From Sphingomonas sanxanigenens DSM 19645 = NX02 (lineage in GTDB: Bacteria; Pseudomonadota; Alphaproteobacteria; Sphingomonadales; Sphingomonadaceae), in assembly GCF_000512205.2 (NCBI RefSeq), contig NZ_CP006644.1:558001-622000 (forward strand): a DNA stretch of 64,000 nt, given 5' to 3'. Below, piece by piece: positions 11,956 through 32,830 of the stretch (the first letter of the stretch is position 1; every line of letters starts with the position of its first letter). The notes beneath the pieces are model-generated. The model did not search any database. It saw nothing but the letters and a program-made list of their open reading frames with translations, and had not been told where the DNA came from. The position numbers and the translations under genes were made by a program.

Positions 11956-12678
11956 CTACTGAAGATATTTGCCGCCGTTGATTGACAGCGTGGCACCGGT
12001 CACGAACCCTTGCTCGTCCTCGACGAGGAAAAGCACGCCGCGGGCAATCTCCTGCGGGGTGCCGAGCCGCCCGACCGGCACGCCCGCCAATACCGCCTTC
12101 AGCGCCTCCTCCGGCACGGCCGCGACCATTCCGGTGTCCGTGTAGCCCGGCGCGATCGCATTGACGGTGATGTTGCGGCTCGCGCCTTCGAGCGCGAGCG
12201 CCTTGGTGAAGCCGATCACCCCCGCCTTGGCGGCGGCATAATTGGTCTGGCCGAACTGGCCGGAGAGACCATTGACCGAGCTGATGTTGACGATCCTTCC
12301 GAAACGCCGCGCACGCATGCCCTCGATAACGGCGCGGCACATGTTGAAGCAGCCGCCAAGGTCCACGTCGATGACGCTTCGCCATTGTTCCTCGGTCATC
12401 TTGTGGAGCGTGCCGTCGCGGGTGATGCCGGCATTGTTGATGAGGATGTCGATCGATCCGAGTTCCGCGACGACCTTGGCGATTCCGTCCCGGCTTTCCG
12501 AGAAGCTGGCGACGTTCCAGCTATAGGCAGGAATGCCCGTCTCCTCGACGAACCGGTCGGCTTCCTCGTCATTGCCGAAATAATTGACGGCGACGCCATA
12601 GCCCTTCTCTTTGAGGAGCTTTGCGGTTGCGGCACCGATTCCGGTGACGCCGCCAGTTACGAGCGCAGTTCTGGGCAT
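11956..12678 (-). CDS. phaB: acetoacetyl-CoA reductase, copy 1
   Basis: 240-residue short-chain dehydrogenase. TGGVTGIGAAT is the NADPH-binding loop, NNAG and the Ser of ISSVNG follow, and the catalytic Tyr and Lys are in TNYAAAKAGVIGF. The PhaB-type substrate region INGLSGQFGQTN-like (here VNGLSGQFGQ) and the end GATLSINGGKYLQ are characteristic. It makes (R)-3-hydroxybutyryl-CoA from acetoacetyl-CoA. The ATG at 12678 is chosen because the family starts at this Met; the open frame upstream is not conserved. A second intact copy lies at 16133 and a broken one at 28303. Confidence 0.94.
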   Translation of the reverse strand: MPRTALVTGGVTGIGAATAKLLKEKGYGVAVNYFGNDEEADRFVEETGIPAYSWNVASFSESRDGIAKVVAELGSIDILINNAGITRDGTLHKMTEEQWRSVIDVDLGGCFNMCRAVIEGMRARRFGRIVNISSVNGLSGQFGQTNYAAAKAGVIGFTKALALEGASRNITVNAIAPGYTDTGMVAAVPEEALKAVLAGVPVGRLGTPQEIARGVLFLVEDEQGFVTGATLSINGGKYLQ

Positions 12679-12713
12679 GGGCAATATCCTGGATTGAGGG
12701 AGAAGAGGACGCA

Positions 12714-12863
12714 TCACCGGACGAGATTGTCGCCATCGACAGGGTAGCGGCCGCCGGCATTCAAGGAGGCTTGGCCTGAGAGAAGCGGGGTCCTGCGCCA
12801 TTGCGTCGCCAGGCCCCATCGCAGCGCTGTCAGAATCACTGCCTTGCCCTCGAAATCGGACAT
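12714..12863 (-). pseudogene. 49-residue ORF, possible SDR remnant
   Basis: A small reading frame with a good ribosome site (GGGAGG, seven bases before ATG). It starts SDFEGKAVILTA, like the first strand of a short-chain dehydrogenase, and ends GRYPVDGDNLVR, like the end of that family (VDGGN...). The middle 200 or so residues are missing. It could be an internally deleted dehydrogenase lying directly upstream of phaB, or a chance small protein. Confidence 0.3.
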
Positions 12864-13158
12864 GTGTGTCCTCCCGGCCGATATGAGCACCGCCCCGAAA
12901 CGATATCGAAGGCGGCAAGGAGGAGCTTCAGGCCAGAAGCGACACTCCATGCCGAGGGCATACTCTCCTTGAGATTTCTGAGGCTTCTTGTGGCGCTTTT
13001 GTCGACGCGAGGCAGCGCGTCCGCCATTAGTAACTATACTTATAAGTTTCGTATTCCGCTGGTCAAACCGGATGGAGCACGGCCGCCCCTGATGGGGCGC
13101 GACATGCGACGGAACGAGCCTTGGCGGCGATGAAAAATCCACCGGTCAGATTTTAACA

Positions 13159-16132: not shown

Positions 16133-16861
16133 ATGACGCATATTGCTCTCGTAACGGGTGGAACCCGCGGCATCGGCGCTGCCATCGCGCGGTCGTTGAA
16201 AGCCGCGGGATGGAGCGTGGGTAGCGTCTATCATGGCAACGAGAAAGCAGCCGACGCATTTCTGCACGAGACCGATATCCCGATATTCCGCTGGGATGTC
16301 GCGGACGAAGCGGCATGTCGGGATGGTCTGGCGAAGGTTGAAAGCGAACTCGGGGCGGTGAGTCTCCTCGTCAACAACGCAGGAATTACGCGGGATGGAA
16401 TGTTCCACCGCATGACCTGGGCGCAGTGGCGCGACGTGCTGGCGACCAATCTCGATTCAATGTTTACCATGACCCGTGCAGTGATCGAAGGCATGCGCGA
16501 GCGAGGTTTCGGGCGGATCATCAATATTTCTTCGATCAACGGTCAAAAGGGTCAGGTCGGACAAGTGAACTACTCGGCCGCCAAGGCCGGGGTCATCGGC
16601 TTCACCAAGGCATTGGCCCAGGAAAATGCCGGGCGCGGGATCACGGTCAACGCAGTTTGCCCCGGCTATGTGGATACTGAGATGGTTGGCGCCGTTCCGC
16701 AGGAGGTCCGTGCGAAGATCATCGCCAGCATTCCAACCGGCCGGCTGGGCTTGCCAGAGGAAATCGCCGAAGCGGTGGCATTTCTCGCGTCACCTGGTGC
16801 CGCATTTTGTACGGGGTCGGTGCTGACCGTTAACGGTGGGCAATATATCGCTAACGGCTGA
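16133..16861 (+). CDS. phaB: acetoacetyl-CoA reductase, copy 2
   Basis: 242 residues with the same plan as copy 1: TGGTRGIGAAI, NNAGITRDGMFHRM, ISSINGQKGQVGQ, catalytic Tyr and Lys in NYSAAKAGVIGF, and the end VLTVNGGQYI. It reduces acetoacetyl-CoA to (R)-3-hydroxybutyryl-CoA with NADPH. AAGGAACCGGAG precedes the ATG. The two intact copies differ at many positions, so they are paralogues rather than a recent duplication. It is followed by a phasin gene 107 bases downstream, and that pair is divergent from a tetR gene, which suggests separate control from copy 1. Confidence 0.94.
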   Translation: MTHIALVTGGTRGIGAAIARSLKAAGWSVGSVYHGNEKAADAFLHETDIPIFRWDVADEAACRDGLAKVESELGAVSLLVNNAGITRDGMFHRMTWAQWRDVLATNLDSMFTMTRAVIEGMRERGFGRIINISSINGQKGQVGQVNYSAAKAGVIGFTKALAQENAGRGITVNAVCPGYVDTEMVGAVPQEVRAKIIASIPTGRLGLPEEIAEAVAFLASPGAAFCTGSVLTVNGGQYIANG

Positions 16862-17641: not shown

Positions 17642-18427
17642 TCAGATACGCGGAAAGACAGGCAGGCGTTCGAACATGAGTGACGCCAGGCTCCAGATGC
17701 TGGTGGCGACCAGCAGCACCCCGACAAGTTGCAGCAGTAGCTTGGGCGGCATGCGCCGTGTCAACCAGGCGCCGAAAGGCGCTGCCACGAGGCCGCCGAT
17801 CAGGATGCCGGTCGCGGCGTTGGTGAACTGCAGGCCGTGAATGCCGACGAAGGCAGTGAGGACCGTGACGGTCACGAAGAATTCCGCAGCATTGGCCGTA
17901 CCGACGGCTATGCGCGGGGTCATGCCCTGGGCCAGGAGATTACCGGTCACCAGCGGCCCCCAGCCGCCACCGCCTGAGCTGTCGAGGAAACCTCCGAGAA
18001 AGCCTAGCGGAGCAACCAGCCTGATCCTGCGGAAGGCAAACGGCCTGCGCGGCGCGCGCCATAACAGGTAGGCGCCGACCGCGATCAGATAGACGAGCAG
18101 CACGGGCCGCAAAATATCGCTCTTGAGGAAATAGAGCACCCAGATCCCTGCGACACCGCCGATTACGCCCGGGACTGCGAGCCGGGCAAAGAGCGGCCAG
18201 TCGACATTGCGCTGCAAGATATGCGCCATGCCCGCCGCGCCGCTGGTGAAGCTCTCGGCCGTGCGCGTCGCGGAAGAAGCCGCGATCGGTGGAGTGCCGA
18301 ACAGGACAAGCAGGGAATTGGACAGCACGCCGAAACCCAACCCCAGCGCACTGTCGATAGTCTGGGCGAACAGGCCAATGAGAATAAAGGGCGCAAGCTC
18401 GGCCCAGGGGATCGCCGCTATGTCCAT
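17642..18427 (-). CDS. TauE/SafE (TSUP) family membrane permease
   Basis: 261 residues with about eight hydrophobic segments. The two repeated TSUP motifs are visible: FAQTIDSALGLGFGVLSN near the N-terminus and GGFLDSSGGGGWGPLVTGNLL in the middle. The family exports or imports sulfite, sulfonates or related organic anions. The ATG overlaps the stop of the ATP-grasp gene by one base (TGATG), so the two are coupled. The substrate cannot be read from sequence; it may be related to the product of the ATP-grasp ligase. Confidence 0.85.
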   Translation of the reverse strand: MDIAAIPWAELAPFILIGLFAQTIDSALGLGFGVLSNSLLVLFGTPPIAASSATRTAESFTSGAAGMAHILQRNVDWPLFARLAVPGVIGGVAGIWVLYFLKSDILRPVLLVYLIAVGAYLLWRAPRRPFAFRRIRLVAPLGFLGGFLDSSGGGGWGPLVTGNLLAQGMTPRIAVGTANAAEFFVTVTVLTAFVGIHGLQFTNAATGILIGGLVAAPFGAWLTRRMPPKLLLQLVGVLLVATSIWSLASLMFERLPVFPRI

Positions 18428-19809
18428 CAGCCGCGGTCGCTTTTCGCGAGCGCGGACACCGATCGACCGACCCGGCCGGTCGGCGCGGTCAGCGCATAGA
18501 GAAGCGGGAAGCATAGCGCCATCAGCGACAGGAACCCGCTGGCCATCGCGCCGGCGTCCGCGATCCAGGGGAGAATCGCTGCCCATATGGCGAGCGCCAG
18601 AACAACGATCAGCGTGCGCTCCTGTTCGCTGTCGTCGAGCGCGGAGAGATCGGTTCGCGACCGGCCTTCGAACAGCGCCCGCAAGCCGAGGCCCGTCCTG
18701 CTTCTGGCGTCCACCAACAGGGCGGGCGCCAGAGCCTGTCCCAGACAGTTCATGCTCGCCCCGAACAGCCGCACACCCATGGCGCTCGCAAACTCGCGGA
18801 AGTGCGTGTTGCGGTCGGTGATGGCGCGCAGGCCCGTGCGCCCGCCGAAGATCATGTCCGCCAGCACGCTACTCTCGGCGGCCGCTGGCGCGGGCGCCGG
18901 TGCATCCTGCGTGGCGACGATCCACTCCAGGATCGTCGCAGGCACGTCAAGCCCGCTTGCGCGCTCCAGCCCCTGGAAGCCGGGCGCGGAATTGGCCTCG
19001 CAGATCCGATAGCCTTCCTCATCGAACAATATGTCGATGCCGGTAATGTCGAGGTCGAGGATATCGGCTGCCTTGATGGCCAGCTCGGCCATCTCCGGGG
19101 GCGGGTTATAGGCGACGCCGACCCCGCCCAGCGACACGTTGGATTTGAAGCTACCGGTGAGAGAACGGCGCTCCATCGCCGCCACGACGCGCCCGCCCAC
19201 GACGAGGACGCGAACATCGCGGCCGTGGCTTGCGCGGACATAGTGCTGCAGGATGAAATCGGCCTTCGCTTCCGCGCTTTCGAGAAGGCCCGCGAGATCC
19301 TCGAACTGGCTCCGGTTCTCGCATTTGAGGACGCCAGCGCCGCGCGTGCCCTTGAGTGTCTTGACGATCACGGGGAAGCCAAGCTCGCGCTCGACCAGAT
19401 CGACATCCATCGGGAAGGTCCCGAGGATCGTGCGCGGGATCGGCAGGCCCGCCCGGTTCAGGCTTTGCAGCGTATGGAGCTTGTCGGCCACCCGCTCGAT
19501 CGTCGCGGGCCCATTGATCAGCCGCACGCCGCGCCGTTCGAAGTGCCGCAGCAGCGCGAGCGTGTAATAGTCGGTCTCAGCGCCCGTCCGGCAGATGATG
19601 AAGTCGGGACGCCCCATCGGGTTGTCATTGTAGGTGACAGACCAATCCTCGTCGCCGCCGACGATCAGATCGAAGCGATGGGGATCATAGACCATGAGAT
19701 CGATGCCCATCGCACTTGCCGCTTCCTGAAAGCGCAGGACTTCGGGCACCTCCGGGATCGCCGGATCCAGTTCATGATGAAAGAGAATCCAGCCTCGCAA
19801 ATCTCTCAC
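18427..19809 (-). CDS. RimK-like ATP-grasp ligase with a membrane C-terminal extension
   Basis: 460 residues. Residues 1 to about 300 are a RimK-type ATP-grasp: PDFIICRTGAETDYY, the loop GFPVIVKTLKGTRGAGV, QHYVRASHGRDVRV and the metal-binding GIDILFDEEGYRICEANSAPGF. Such enzymes join an amino acid, often Glu, to a carboxyl group. The last 150 or so residues are not part of RimK: a soluble segment (FREFASAMGVRLFGASMNCLG) and two hydrophobic helices near the end (LIVVLALAIWAAILPW and SLMALCFPLLYALTA). I do not recognise this tail. Coupling to a TauE/SafE gene suggests a membrane-tethered ligase whose product or substrate is transported. Confidence 0.75.
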   Translation of the reverse strand: MRDLRGWILFHHELDPAIPEVPEVLRFQEAASAMGIDLMVYDPHRFDLIVGGDEDWSVTYNDNPMGRPDFIICRTGAETDYYTLALLRHFERRGVRLINGPATIERVADKLHTLQSLNRAGLPIPRTILGTFPMDVDLVERELGFPVIVKTLKGTRGAGVLKCENRSQFEDLAGLLESAEAKADFILQHYVRASHGRDVRVLVVGGRVVAAMERRSLTGSFKSNVSLGGVGVAYNPPPEMAELAIKAADILDLDITGIDILFDEEGYRICEANSAPGFQGLERASGLDVPATILEWIVATQDAPAPAPAAAESSVLADMIFGGRTGLRAITDRNTHFREFASAMGVRLFGASMNCLGQALAPALLVDARSRTGLGLRALFEGRSRTDLSALDDSEQERTLIVVLALAIWAAILPWIADAGAMASGFLSLMALCFPLLYALTAPTGRVGRSVSALAKSDRG

Positions 19810-29732: not shown

Positions 29733-30167
29733 ATGTATGATCAACTCATGGCCGCGTTCCGGCTCGACAACACGCCGCTGCTTGCGATCACGGCGGTGAC
29801 CTTCCTGTTCGGCTATCTCGAATATATCTACAGCTTCGCGCTCATCTTCCGGGAGAAGAAGGCGCCCTATCCGATCTGGATGCATACCTTCTATCTGGCG
29901 CATGACAGCAGCTGGGCGATCATCATGTTCATGGCTGCGGCCAGCCATGAATGGCACTGGTTCTTCACCGCCACGGCGATCGCGCTGCTGGTCTGGAACA
30001 TATTCGAGATCATCAACATATACATGGTCATCACGGTTGAGCGGCAGGAGGTTTTCGGGGAGGTCTTTTCCCGCCCGGTTACGCTCGGGAACGCACTGCT
30101 GAGCGTGGGCCTGCAATGTGGAGCGGCGTGCAAAAGGGACCCCGTTATGGGGGTGATCGGCGTCTAA
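29733..30167 (+). pseudogene. four-helix membrane protein gene truncated by IS21 insertion
   Basis: The readable part gives about 128 residues of native protein up to GNALLSVGLQ, then the frame continues 17 codons into the IS left end (junction at 30117). It has about four membrane helices (LLAITAVTFLFGYLEYIYSF; AIIMFMAAASHEWHWFF; TATAIALLVWNIFEIINIYM) and a charged loop REKKAPYPIW. I do not recognise the family. The missing C-terminus is not found on the right side of the IS. It was probably the target of the divergent TetR. Confidence 0.7.
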
Positions 30168-30231
30168 AAGGGACCCCCATCTCGATGGTTTAGGTGCGTC
30201 CGCTTGGTTGTAGCCAGGCGGCGGGATCGGG

Positions 30232-31746
30232 ATGTTGATTTTGGAGACGGTGGTAAGGATTCGGCGCGAGCACGCCGACGGTAAATCGATCAAGGCGATC
30301 GCGCGTGACCTGCGGGTGTCGCGCAAGGTGATAAGGAAGGCGATCCGAGCCCCGGAGGCGGGCTTTGCTTATCGGCGGTCGGTGCAGCCGCTTCCCCGGA
30401 TCGGTCCGTTCCAGGAGCGCCTGGATACTCTGCTGACGGAGAACGAGGCACGGCCGCGGCGCGAACGGCTGCGGATGACGCGGATTCACGACCTGCTGCT
30501 GCGCGAGGGGTTCGACGGCTCCTACGATGCGGTCCGGCGCTATGCGAAGCGCTGGCTGGACGACCGACGCAAGGATGCCGGCGACGGCGCCGCGGCGTTC
30601 ATCCCGCTGATGTTCCGGCCCGGCGAGGCCTACCAGTTCGACTGGAGCCACGAGGATGTGGAGATCGCCGGCAAGCCGATGCGGGTGAAGGTCGCGCATA
30701 TGCGGCTTTGCGCGTCGCGGGCGGTGTTCGTGCGGGCCTATCCCCGCGAGACGCAGGAGATGGTGTTCGACGCCCATGCACGGGCGTTCGCTTTCTTCGG
30801 CGGCGTGCCGACGCGCGGCATCTACGACAACATGAAGACCGCGGTGACGACGGTGTTCACCGGCAAGGAGCGGGTCTTCAACCGCCGGTTCCTGATCATG
30901 GCCGATCACTACATGATCGAGCCTACCGCCTGCTCGCCAGCAGCGGGTTGGGAGAAGGGCCAGGTCGAGCACCAGGTGCAGACGATCCGGGGGCGGTTCT
31001 TCCAGCCCCGATTACGCTTTGCGAGCCTGGAGGAGCTGAACGGGTGGCTTGAGGCCGAGTGCCGCCGCTGGGCGGCGCTGCACCCGCATCCCGATCAACG
31101 CGAGCTGACCATCGCCGAGGCATGGGACGCCGAGCGCCCCTCGCTCCAGGTGATGCTGGCGCCGTTCGACGGCTTCCACGAGACGCCGCACGCGGTGACC
31201 GGCACTTGCCTGATCAGCTTCGACCGCAACCGCTACTCGGTCATGGCCAAGGCGGCCCGGCGGGCGGTGCAGGTTCGCGCCTATGCGGACCGGATCGTGG
31301 TCCGCCTCGACGATGAGGTGATCGCCGAGCATCCCCGCTTCTTCGGCCGGGATCGGATGATCCTCGATCCCTGGCACTACCTGCCGGTGCTGGCCAAGAA
31401 GCCGGGCGCCTTGAGGAACGGAGCACCGTTCCAGGACTGGGATCTCCCGCCGGCACTGGCGCGGCTCAGGCGCAAGCTGGGGACAGGCGATGAAGCCGAC
31501 CGCCGGTTCGTGCGCGTGCTCTCTGCCGTGCTGACCGATGGCCTCGAAGCGGTCGAGGCCGCGATCCGCGAGGCACTCGCCGCCGGCGCTGCCAGCGATG
31601 ACGTAATCCTCAACATCTTGGCACGGCGGCGAGAGCCGCCCCGGCCACTGACCATCGCCACGTCCGAAGCGCTAGCGCTCAGCCACCCACCGACCGCGGA
31701 CTGCGCTCGCTATGACCTTCTGCGAGGCGCCCGTGCAGCGGCATGA
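30232..31746 (+). CDS. istA: IS21-family transposase IstA
   Basis: 504 residues. The N-terminus has a helix-turn-helix ([21 protein letters not shown]) for end binding. The DDE integrase core starts with [11 protein letters not shown], then YDNMKTAV and the Glu-bearing [15 protein letters not shown]. The C-terminal part resembles other IstA. It catalyses strand transfer for the element. It overlaps istB by 35 bases, as usual in IS21. It appears intact, so the element may still be active. Confidence 0.96.
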
Positions 31747-32461
31747 GATGATCGCCGCGATGAGCGGCCTGGGCCTCAAGGGCATGGCTGGCGCCTTCGA
31801 CGAGGCGGTCACCACGGGCATGCAGCGCAAGCGCACCGCCATCGAGATCCTGACCGATCTGCTACGCGCTGAGGCTGCTCATCGCCATGCGGCATCGATC
31901 CGCTATCGCATGACCGCGGCCAGGCTTCCGGTGGTGAAGGACATCGATGCGTTCGTGTTCGAGGGGACGCTGATCGATGAGCAGCTGGTGCGCTCGCTGC
32001 ATGCTGGCTCGTTCCTGCCCGGTCAGCGCAATATCGTCCTGGTCGGCGGCACCGGGACCGGGAAGACCCACCTGGCCGTCGCAATCACTGCCAGCGTCGT
32101 GCGTGCCGGCGCCCGCGGCCGCTACTACAACACCGTGGATCTGGTGAACCGGCTCGAGGAAGAGAGCCGCCTCGGCAAGGCCGGCGCGCTTGCGGCCCAG
32201 CTCTCCCGCCTCGATCTCGTCGTGCTCGATGAGCTTGGCTATCTGCCGTTCGCCCGCTCGGGCGGCCAGTTGCTGTTCCACCTCGTCAGCAAACTCTACG
32301 AGCGCACCTCGGTGATCATCACGACGAACCTGGCGTTCGGGGAATGGCCGACCGTGTTCGGCGATCCCAAGATGACGGCCGCGCTGCTCGATCGCATCAC
32401 CCATCACTGCGACATCGTCGAGACCGGCAACGACAGCTGGCGCCTCAGAAACCGAAGCTAA
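31712..32461 (+). CDS. istB: IS21-family helper ATPase IstB
   Basis: 249 residues, normal length. AAA+ elements: Walker [12 protein letters not shown], Walker [13 protein letters not shown], sensor [10 protein letters not shown]. The conserved N-terminus for this group ([16 protein letters not shown]) is present. IstB is a DnaA-like ATPase that remodels target DNA for IstA. The start overlaps istA; a later Met, in HEM at 31748, is also possible. Confidence 0.96.
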
Positions 32462-32659
32462 AACCCTCCCCCCGGACCCCCCACCCGGCGGTTGACCCGG
32501 TGGGTCCACAGGAACCTCCCACGGCCGGCACCGCCAGCGCTTGGGGGGCGCGCAGCGCCGGCCGTGGGTCCCTCCTATGGACTACCGGGACAACCGCCCG
32601 GCAACCCGAAAAGGGGGTCCCTATTGCACGCCGATATGGGGTCCCGGTTCGACGCCTAT

Positions 32660-32830
32660 TTACAAACCGGGGTGGCAGTATAGCAGTTCGCCGTCCGATA
32701 GCGGAAGCTCTGCAAACCACCATATTTCGACGATCGGCGCGACCGTTTTCCGGTAGTGCGGATGACCTGATGTTTCGGAGATGAAATAAAAATGGGTGCG
32801 ATCGGAGCCTGCAGCGGCTTCTGACCGGAA
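32660..32830 (-). pseudogene. truncated hypothetical gene at the IS right flank
   Basis: The minus-strand frame reads SDRTHFYFISETSGHPHYRK then TVAPIVEIWWFAELPLSDGE and stops just inside the IS end. The sequence is protein-like with aromatic and charged residues, but no start codon with a ribosome site is seen. It looks like a gene fragment cut by the insertion or by an IS-adjacent deletion. Family not recognised. Confidence 0.3.

Follow-up and report, generated by a model that had tools for sequence, protein, structure and literature searches.

A RimK-type ligase with a membrane tail and its TSUP permease partner in sphingomonads: a conserved gene pair with a proposed role in sulfur acquisition

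A 64,000-nucleotide stretch of the Sphingomonas sanxanigenens DSM 19645 = NX02 genome (contig NZ_CP006644.1, positions 558,001 to 622,000; hereafter the window, whose numbering is used for its features) encodes a RimK-type ATP-grasp ligase with a C-terminal membrane tail (18427..19809, minus strand, 460 amino acids, GTG start) and, directly downstream, a permease of the TSUP (TauE/SafE) family (17642..18427, minus strand, 261 amino acids, ATG start). The two genes recur together in several genera of sphingomonads, bacteria of soil and water. Because of this co-occurrence and of the matching features of the two sequences, a working complex is the best explanation, most likely one that sits in the membrane and serves the acquisition of sulfur. 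The full proposal, in which ligase and permease would be one unit, a membrane-anchored RimK-type ligase docked on a TSUP permease for a sulfur compound, we regard as evenly balanced between right and wrong.

RimK relatives are familiar as enzymes that tag proteins and coenzymes, and to our knowledge few TSUP permeases have a tested substrate. The pair was not found described in the literature searched (preprints and most subscription papers lay outside its scope), nor was a transport-coupled ligase counterpart found there among RimK-family enzymes or TSUP permeases. What would be new is the tie between an enzyme of the RimK family and a single subfamily of permeases. The membrane tail, together with a constant permease partner that has matching features, makes a physical complex directly testable; if the proposal is true, amino-acid ligation would be linked to sulfur uptake, and the pair would offer a way to find out what TSUP permeases carry.

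Co-occurrence of ligase and permease

A scan of genome contigs, which relied on exact short motifs and so may have let distant relatives escape, identified 38 relatives of the ligase. They are found in Novosphingobium, Sphingopyxis, Sphingomonas, Sphingobium, Hephaestia, Sphingosinicella and Sandaracinobacteroides, in two records assigned only to a higher group, and in one Micavibrio metagenome-assembled genome (MAG). The tail is present and the permease gene lies directly downstream, in the same order and on the same strand, in 35 of the 38 loci; the exceptions are the tailless ligase of the Micavibrio MAG (L099), a ligase that is cut short (L100) and a locus at a contig end (L101). The permease start codon overlaps the ligase stop codon by one or four bases in 33 of these 35 loci. 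The other two are L082 and L090, and in the latter the ligase frame continues beyond its expected end; the ligase of a further locus, L097, is frameshifted. In the window, base 18427 is common to the ligase stop codon (18429-18427) and the permease start codon (18427-18425; TGATG), which is the one-base overlap described in the initial annotation. One tailed ligase, that of Novosphingobium sp. RL4, is encoded on a replicon of 1.8 Mb that its listing calls a plasmid (L206, NZ_CP141945.1).

Among 397 genomes of the family, the ligase was found (at E up to 1e-50) in ten, of which seven encode a tailed protein (one split over two contigs) and three a tailless one (46-47 % identity). TSUP permeases at E<=1e-76, to which the comparison was confined, were found in 18 genomes and carry a C-terminal extension in seven, exactly the seven with the tailed ligase. 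Chance adjacency is rejected by these matching seven genomes and by the 35 loci in which order and strand are kept. The initial annotation did not recognise the pairing and would have taken a lack of co-occurrence elsewhere as a refutation; the pair does co-occur elsewhere, and the suggestion of a ligase held at the membrane and tied to the permease is well supported.

Tailless RimK-family ligases with the same catalytic half (46-49 % identity) occur in sphingomonads (genomes G305, G245 and G336), in the Micavibrio MAG, whose protein carries the RTGAETDY motif of the paired ligases, and on four Pseudoalteromonas replicons. The first four have neither a tail nor a relative of the paired permease in the flanks searched (tblastn, E 1e-10), and in G305 and G336 a different TSUP-like gene, recognised by eye, lies approximately 5 kb from the ligase; for the Pseudoalteromonas ligases, no such permease is annotated nearby in the one record, out of four, that was examined. 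In the MAG (L099, 380-2103), the ligase is followed by a gene that by eye resembles N-formylglutamate amidohydrolases, which is a different partnership. The occurrence of such relatives in other settings is what would be expected if the target of the ligase, in the cytoplasm or the membrane, had nothing to do with the permease, whose gene would only be under the same promoter. We consider mere co-transcription of this kind very improbable, given the near-complete co-occurrence, the overlapping frames and the pair-specific features of the permease.

Sequence features of the ligase and the permease

The catalytic half of the ligase was described as RimK-like in the initial annotation, and profile searches agree. 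The Rimk_N pre-ATP-grasp domain (PF18030; residues 24-104, 19498..19740, minus strand) scores 43.1 bits against a cut-off of 26.4, and membership of the RimK ATP-grasp family follows from curated cut-offs exceeded by both the RimK ATP-grasp domain (PF08443; residues 108-297, 18919..19488, minus strand; 145.8 bits, cut-off 21) and the NCBIfam subfamily TIGR00768 (209.3, cut-off 143.4). The cut-off of the S6-ligase equivalog PRK10446 / NF007764 is not reached (169.2 vs 331). The catalytic half aligns with RimK over profile positions 19-298 (214 bits to PDB 5zct), and its top fold matches are RimK structures (PDB 5zct, 4iwx, 7qyr and 7qys).

According to PMC10092738, residues R64, R189 and N262 of Pseudomonas aeruginosa RimK touch the bound glutamate chain. 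The aligned ligase residues R74, R200 and N273 are invariant across 35 ligase sequences. In the same alignment E78 stands in place of the acceptor-chain contact S68, and E23 in place of the contact S14, the latter a reading by eye at the point where the aligned stretch starts. Since the glutamate-site contacts are kept and S68 and S14 are replaced, amino-acid ligation is likely retained and the acceptor is probably different from that of RimK; the transferred amino acid is probably glutamate. The protein shares with RimK (ribosomal protein S6:glutamate ligase) the ATP-grasp fold and the residues of the terminal-glutamate site, but differs in these two substitutions, its low S6-equivalog score, its permease partner and a membrane tail of 160 residues.

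The tail (residues 300-460; 18430..18912, minus strand) is found in full-length paired ligases and not in the tailless relatives. It has two hydrophobic helices, at residues 399-417 and approximately 421-441, and a third, weaker one at 337-360; a structure model (mean predicted local distance difference test score, pLDDT, 66.3) has tail helices at 337-360, 393-417 and 421-441. Residues 399-441 (18487..18615, minus strand) form a membrane hairpin, after which the chain ends in a basic stretch. Both termini of the hairpin therefore probably face the cytoplasm, as the ATP-using half requires. No domain-library match to the tail is above cut-off, in keeping with the unrecognised tail of about 150 residues and two hydrophobic helices in the initial annotation. 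The nearest likeness is to DUF6356 (PF19883), a short family of 64 positions comprising small proteins of sphingomonads and their relatives, and a label without a function. Residues 328-377 (18679..18828, minus strand), which include the weaker helix, align with it when a profile of 14 tails is compared with one of 13 DUF6356 sequences (hhalign probability 95.6, 50 columns, 14 % identity, and an E-value of 1.2e-8 that refers to this single comparison), and a single tail sequence scores below the Pfam cut-off (15.5 vs 24.4). The segment makes up only part of the longer tail. The initial annotation would have been refuted if the tail were a familiar domain doing something unrelated; a tail taken from a known domain is rejected, DUF6356 being the only candidate and below cut-off. 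A class-wide scan of 289 genomes gave weak matches to the tail (E up to 0.01) in nine, including the S. sanxanigenens genome itself.

The permease belongs to the TSUP family (PF01925, 138.5 bits, cut-off 32.6), as do characterised members such as the Pseudomonas fluorescens protein discussed below. Its model (mean pLDDT 59.8) has a helix pattern of two repeats of five, and a profile search found no relative of it among solved structures. All 36 paired permeases (those of the 35 loci and of the window) carry a C-terminal extension (residues 253-261; 17645..17671, minus strand) that reaches 6-9 residues beyond the end of unpaired sphingomonad TSUPs (nine, when compared with 23 of 29 unpaired proteins). 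The extension includes P256 in all 36, and its end is F-x-R/G plus a hydrophobic residue in 32. It was sought in 41 unpaired permeases (a first set of 29 and a second of 12) and found in none, so the idea that it already existed in unpaired permeases is rejected; the alignment of one of them (G215) reaches residue 259, but does so across a stop codon, the protein ending before the extension. When redundant sequences are removed, P256 and R128, the latter within a basic loop (residues 124-136; 18020..18058, minus strand), are each present in 21 of 21 paired and 0 of 27 unpaired proteins. These distinctions are drawn against unpaired sphingomonad homologues of approximately 50 % identity.

Thirteen positions in total are specific to the paired permeases, which share 63 % identity with one another and 50 % with unpaired proteins and so form one group; their pair-specific features may have a single origin. 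The most conserved residues (Q22, D25, E58, H69, N74, D149, R172, E182 and others) are invariant in the paired permeases and nearly so in the unpaired ones, which suggests that both carry a common cargo. Because it is the basic loop and the C-terminal extension that have changed, while the conserved residues are common to both groups, control of the permease or docking to it would be about as possible as a link through the cargo, in which the ligase would make or use the transported compound as the initial annotation proposed. The unpaired homologues (L104-L132) often adjoin genes that by eye resemble those for serine O-acetyltransferases, OxyR-type regulators and peroxiredoxins.

Gene neighbourhoods and the proposed function

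Neighbourhoods were compared for 38 loci (L065-L098, L102, L101 at a contig end, L064 in the window itself, and L054 of genome G216), leaving out L099 and L100, and also L055-L063, the last of which are repeats of named loci or tailless. Matches to sulfur-related queries were found in ten of the 38 (L076, L078, L079, L080, L082, L083, L084, L098, L054 and L101) and in none of 40 control windows (Fisher exact p 4e-4, although the loci are related and not independent). CysA, which matched six controls, was set aside as a general ATPase. All of the ten except L101 were also found with a query from another locus. According to Pfam and NCBIfam, the types of gene near the pair, in different genera, are SsuA-family proteins, TauD-family dioxygenases, a Sulfatase-family protein, NtaA/DmoA monooxygenases, sulfate ABC components and an EpsC-type serine O-acetyltransferase. 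Above NCBIfam cut-offs are SsuA in L084 and L080, NtaA/DmoA monooxygenases in L080, L078 and L054, and sulfate-binding protein with CysT in L063 (the contig of L101); the EpsC-type serine O-acetyltransferase of L056, from the species of L076, is also above its cut-off. The SsuA-like protein of L078 and the TauD of L057 are below the cut-offs of the SsuA and taurine-dioxygenase models, respectively. By our reading of coordinates, four TauD genes lie no more than 8 kb from the ligase in three of 23 genomes, where approximately 0.35 would be expected by chance from the 101 matches in the 23, and NtaA/DmoA-type monooxygenases lie near it in two of 23 loci, with approximately 0.13 expected, given that 12 of the 23 genomes together hold 37 matches. 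The proximity of these two types to the pair is suggestive only. Taken over all types, the surroundings support a sulfur theme in about a quarter of loci. In several genomes unpaired homologues of the permease, too, lie next to apparent serine O-acetyltransferase genes (read by eye).

A TauE-family protein of P. fluorescens restores growth of an Escherichia coli cysA mutant, and its authors conclude that it imports sulfate (PMC11535334). Because of that conclusion and of the context in about a quarter of loci, the cargo of the paired permease is probably a sulfur oxyanion or a small sulfonate. The proposed mechanism is as follows. A RimK-type ligase for an amino acid, probably glutamate, would be anchored in the inner membrane via its C-terminal hairpin, and its tail would dock it on the TSUP permease carrying the sulfur oxyanion or small sulfonate. 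Working at the cytoplasmic mouth, the ligase would use a small (sulfo)carboxylate carried by the permease as acceptor of the amino acid, and the ligation would trap or load the cargo. We give this conjugation step about one chance in three. In its most pointed form, in which the cargo or its carrier would be aminoacylated while crossing the membrane, a vectorial aminoacylation in sulfur acquisition by an ATP-grasp enzyme bolted to a permease, the idea is doubtful.

Several observations weigh against the proposal of a cargo-conjugating complex. No sulfur query matches in 28 of the 38 loci, among them the window's own, all those of Novosphingobium and most of those of Sphingopyxis. The 20 queries, proteins of sulfonate-, sulfate- or CysE-type, were drawn from these same loci, the controls are windows at regular steps in only seven sphingomonad genomes, the species behind the count are related, and a gene of the TauD/TfdA family does not necessarily have a sulfonate as its substrate. 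Identical conserved residues in paired and unpaired permeases argue against a new cargo, and several of the group-specific positions lie inside predicted helices. Since the tailless ligase of L099 carries the same residues as E78 and E23, those changes are not specific to the pair. The distribution of charge, as we read it from poor models, speaks slightly more for a periplasmic than for a cytoplasmic permease C-terminus, and the extension would therefore be on the side opposite the ligase active site. Finally, interaction and activity of the two proteins are predictions from sequence, and the structure models are too poor to judge docking.

The next most likely chemical step after conjugation of the cargo is control of the permease by ligation. 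Docked through its tail, the ligase would modify either the permease or a small partner protein with amino acids, and thereby switch uptake, perhaps with cyclic di-GMP (c-di-GMP) as the signal. RimK provides a precedent in adding amino acids to ribosomal protein S6, and the ATPase of Pseudomonas RimK is stimulated by c-di-GMP, as stated in PMC10092738. The paired permeases, with their altered basic loop and C-terminal extension beside unchanged conserved residues, are consistent with such control. GGDEF-type genes, recognised by motif and by eye, lie in the flank of 14 of the 38 loci (L067, L069, L072, L073, L075, L080, L083, L085-L089, L093 and L094) and of one of the 40 controls (Fisher p 1e-4). 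They apparently have at least three architectures, in Sphingopyxis, Novosphingobium and Sandaracinobacteroides, and could mean c-di-GMP control. However, these loci represent few independent events because those of Sphingopyxis have one common arrangement, and the match in L080 is approximately 7 kb from the ligase. In nearly all paired permeases the last residue of the extension is hydrophobic, not Glu, and the permease C-terminus may be periplasmic. Control of the permease is a possibility that we hold with slightly less confidence than conjugation.

Another alternative is biosynthesis and export, in which a conjugate carrying a glutamyl or another aminoacyl group would be made by the ligase and leave the cell through the permease. 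The RimK relative MyfB, as described in PMC8141765, lengthens the polyglutamate chain of methylofuran, which is a precedent for such biosynthesis. However, a constant third gene was sought and none was found: the clusters common to most loci are the pair itself, and outside close relatives the flanks vary. We consider biosynthesis and export unlikely. Overall, we place conjugation of the cargo at the permease mouth first, control of the permease a little behind it, and product export and mere co-transcription below both.

A subfamily of TonB-type receptors (by eye; 34-75 % mutual identity) adjoins L054, L066, L080, L082 and L084, with best control matches of 30-31 % in two of the 40 windows. 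No conclusion about a partnership is drawn, as such receptors are common.

The window's own island and a second ligase copy

The island around the pair in the window encodes OsmC, MarR, GST, short-chain dehydrogenases, DksA, two P-type ATPases and a universal stress protein, and no sulfur gene was seen in it. Two similar short-chain dehydrogenases, perhaps acetoacetyl-CoA reductases (named by eye), are encoded on opposite strands at 11956-12918 and 16133-16861, on either side of the OsmC, MarR and GST genes.

The same genome carries a second copy of the ligase (G000:C1:371298-372407; locus L032, 9080-10471, minus strand), 97 % identical over residues 3-372. Its tail is broken by an IS21 element (istA and istB by eye) that starts after residue 372, and the 19-kb stretch around it yielded no relative of the permease. 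The stretch also contains a copy of the window's P-type ATPase and universal-stress region, with 86 % identity at the DNA level. The window has an IS21 of its own at 30117-32670 (istA and istB likewise by eye), which is 99.9 % identical to the one breaking the second copy; such identity indicates that the element moved recently. P-type ATPase and universal-stress-type genes also surround the shortened ligase of Sphingobium arseniciresistens (L100, 7998-8603), which is cut after approximately 119 matching residues.
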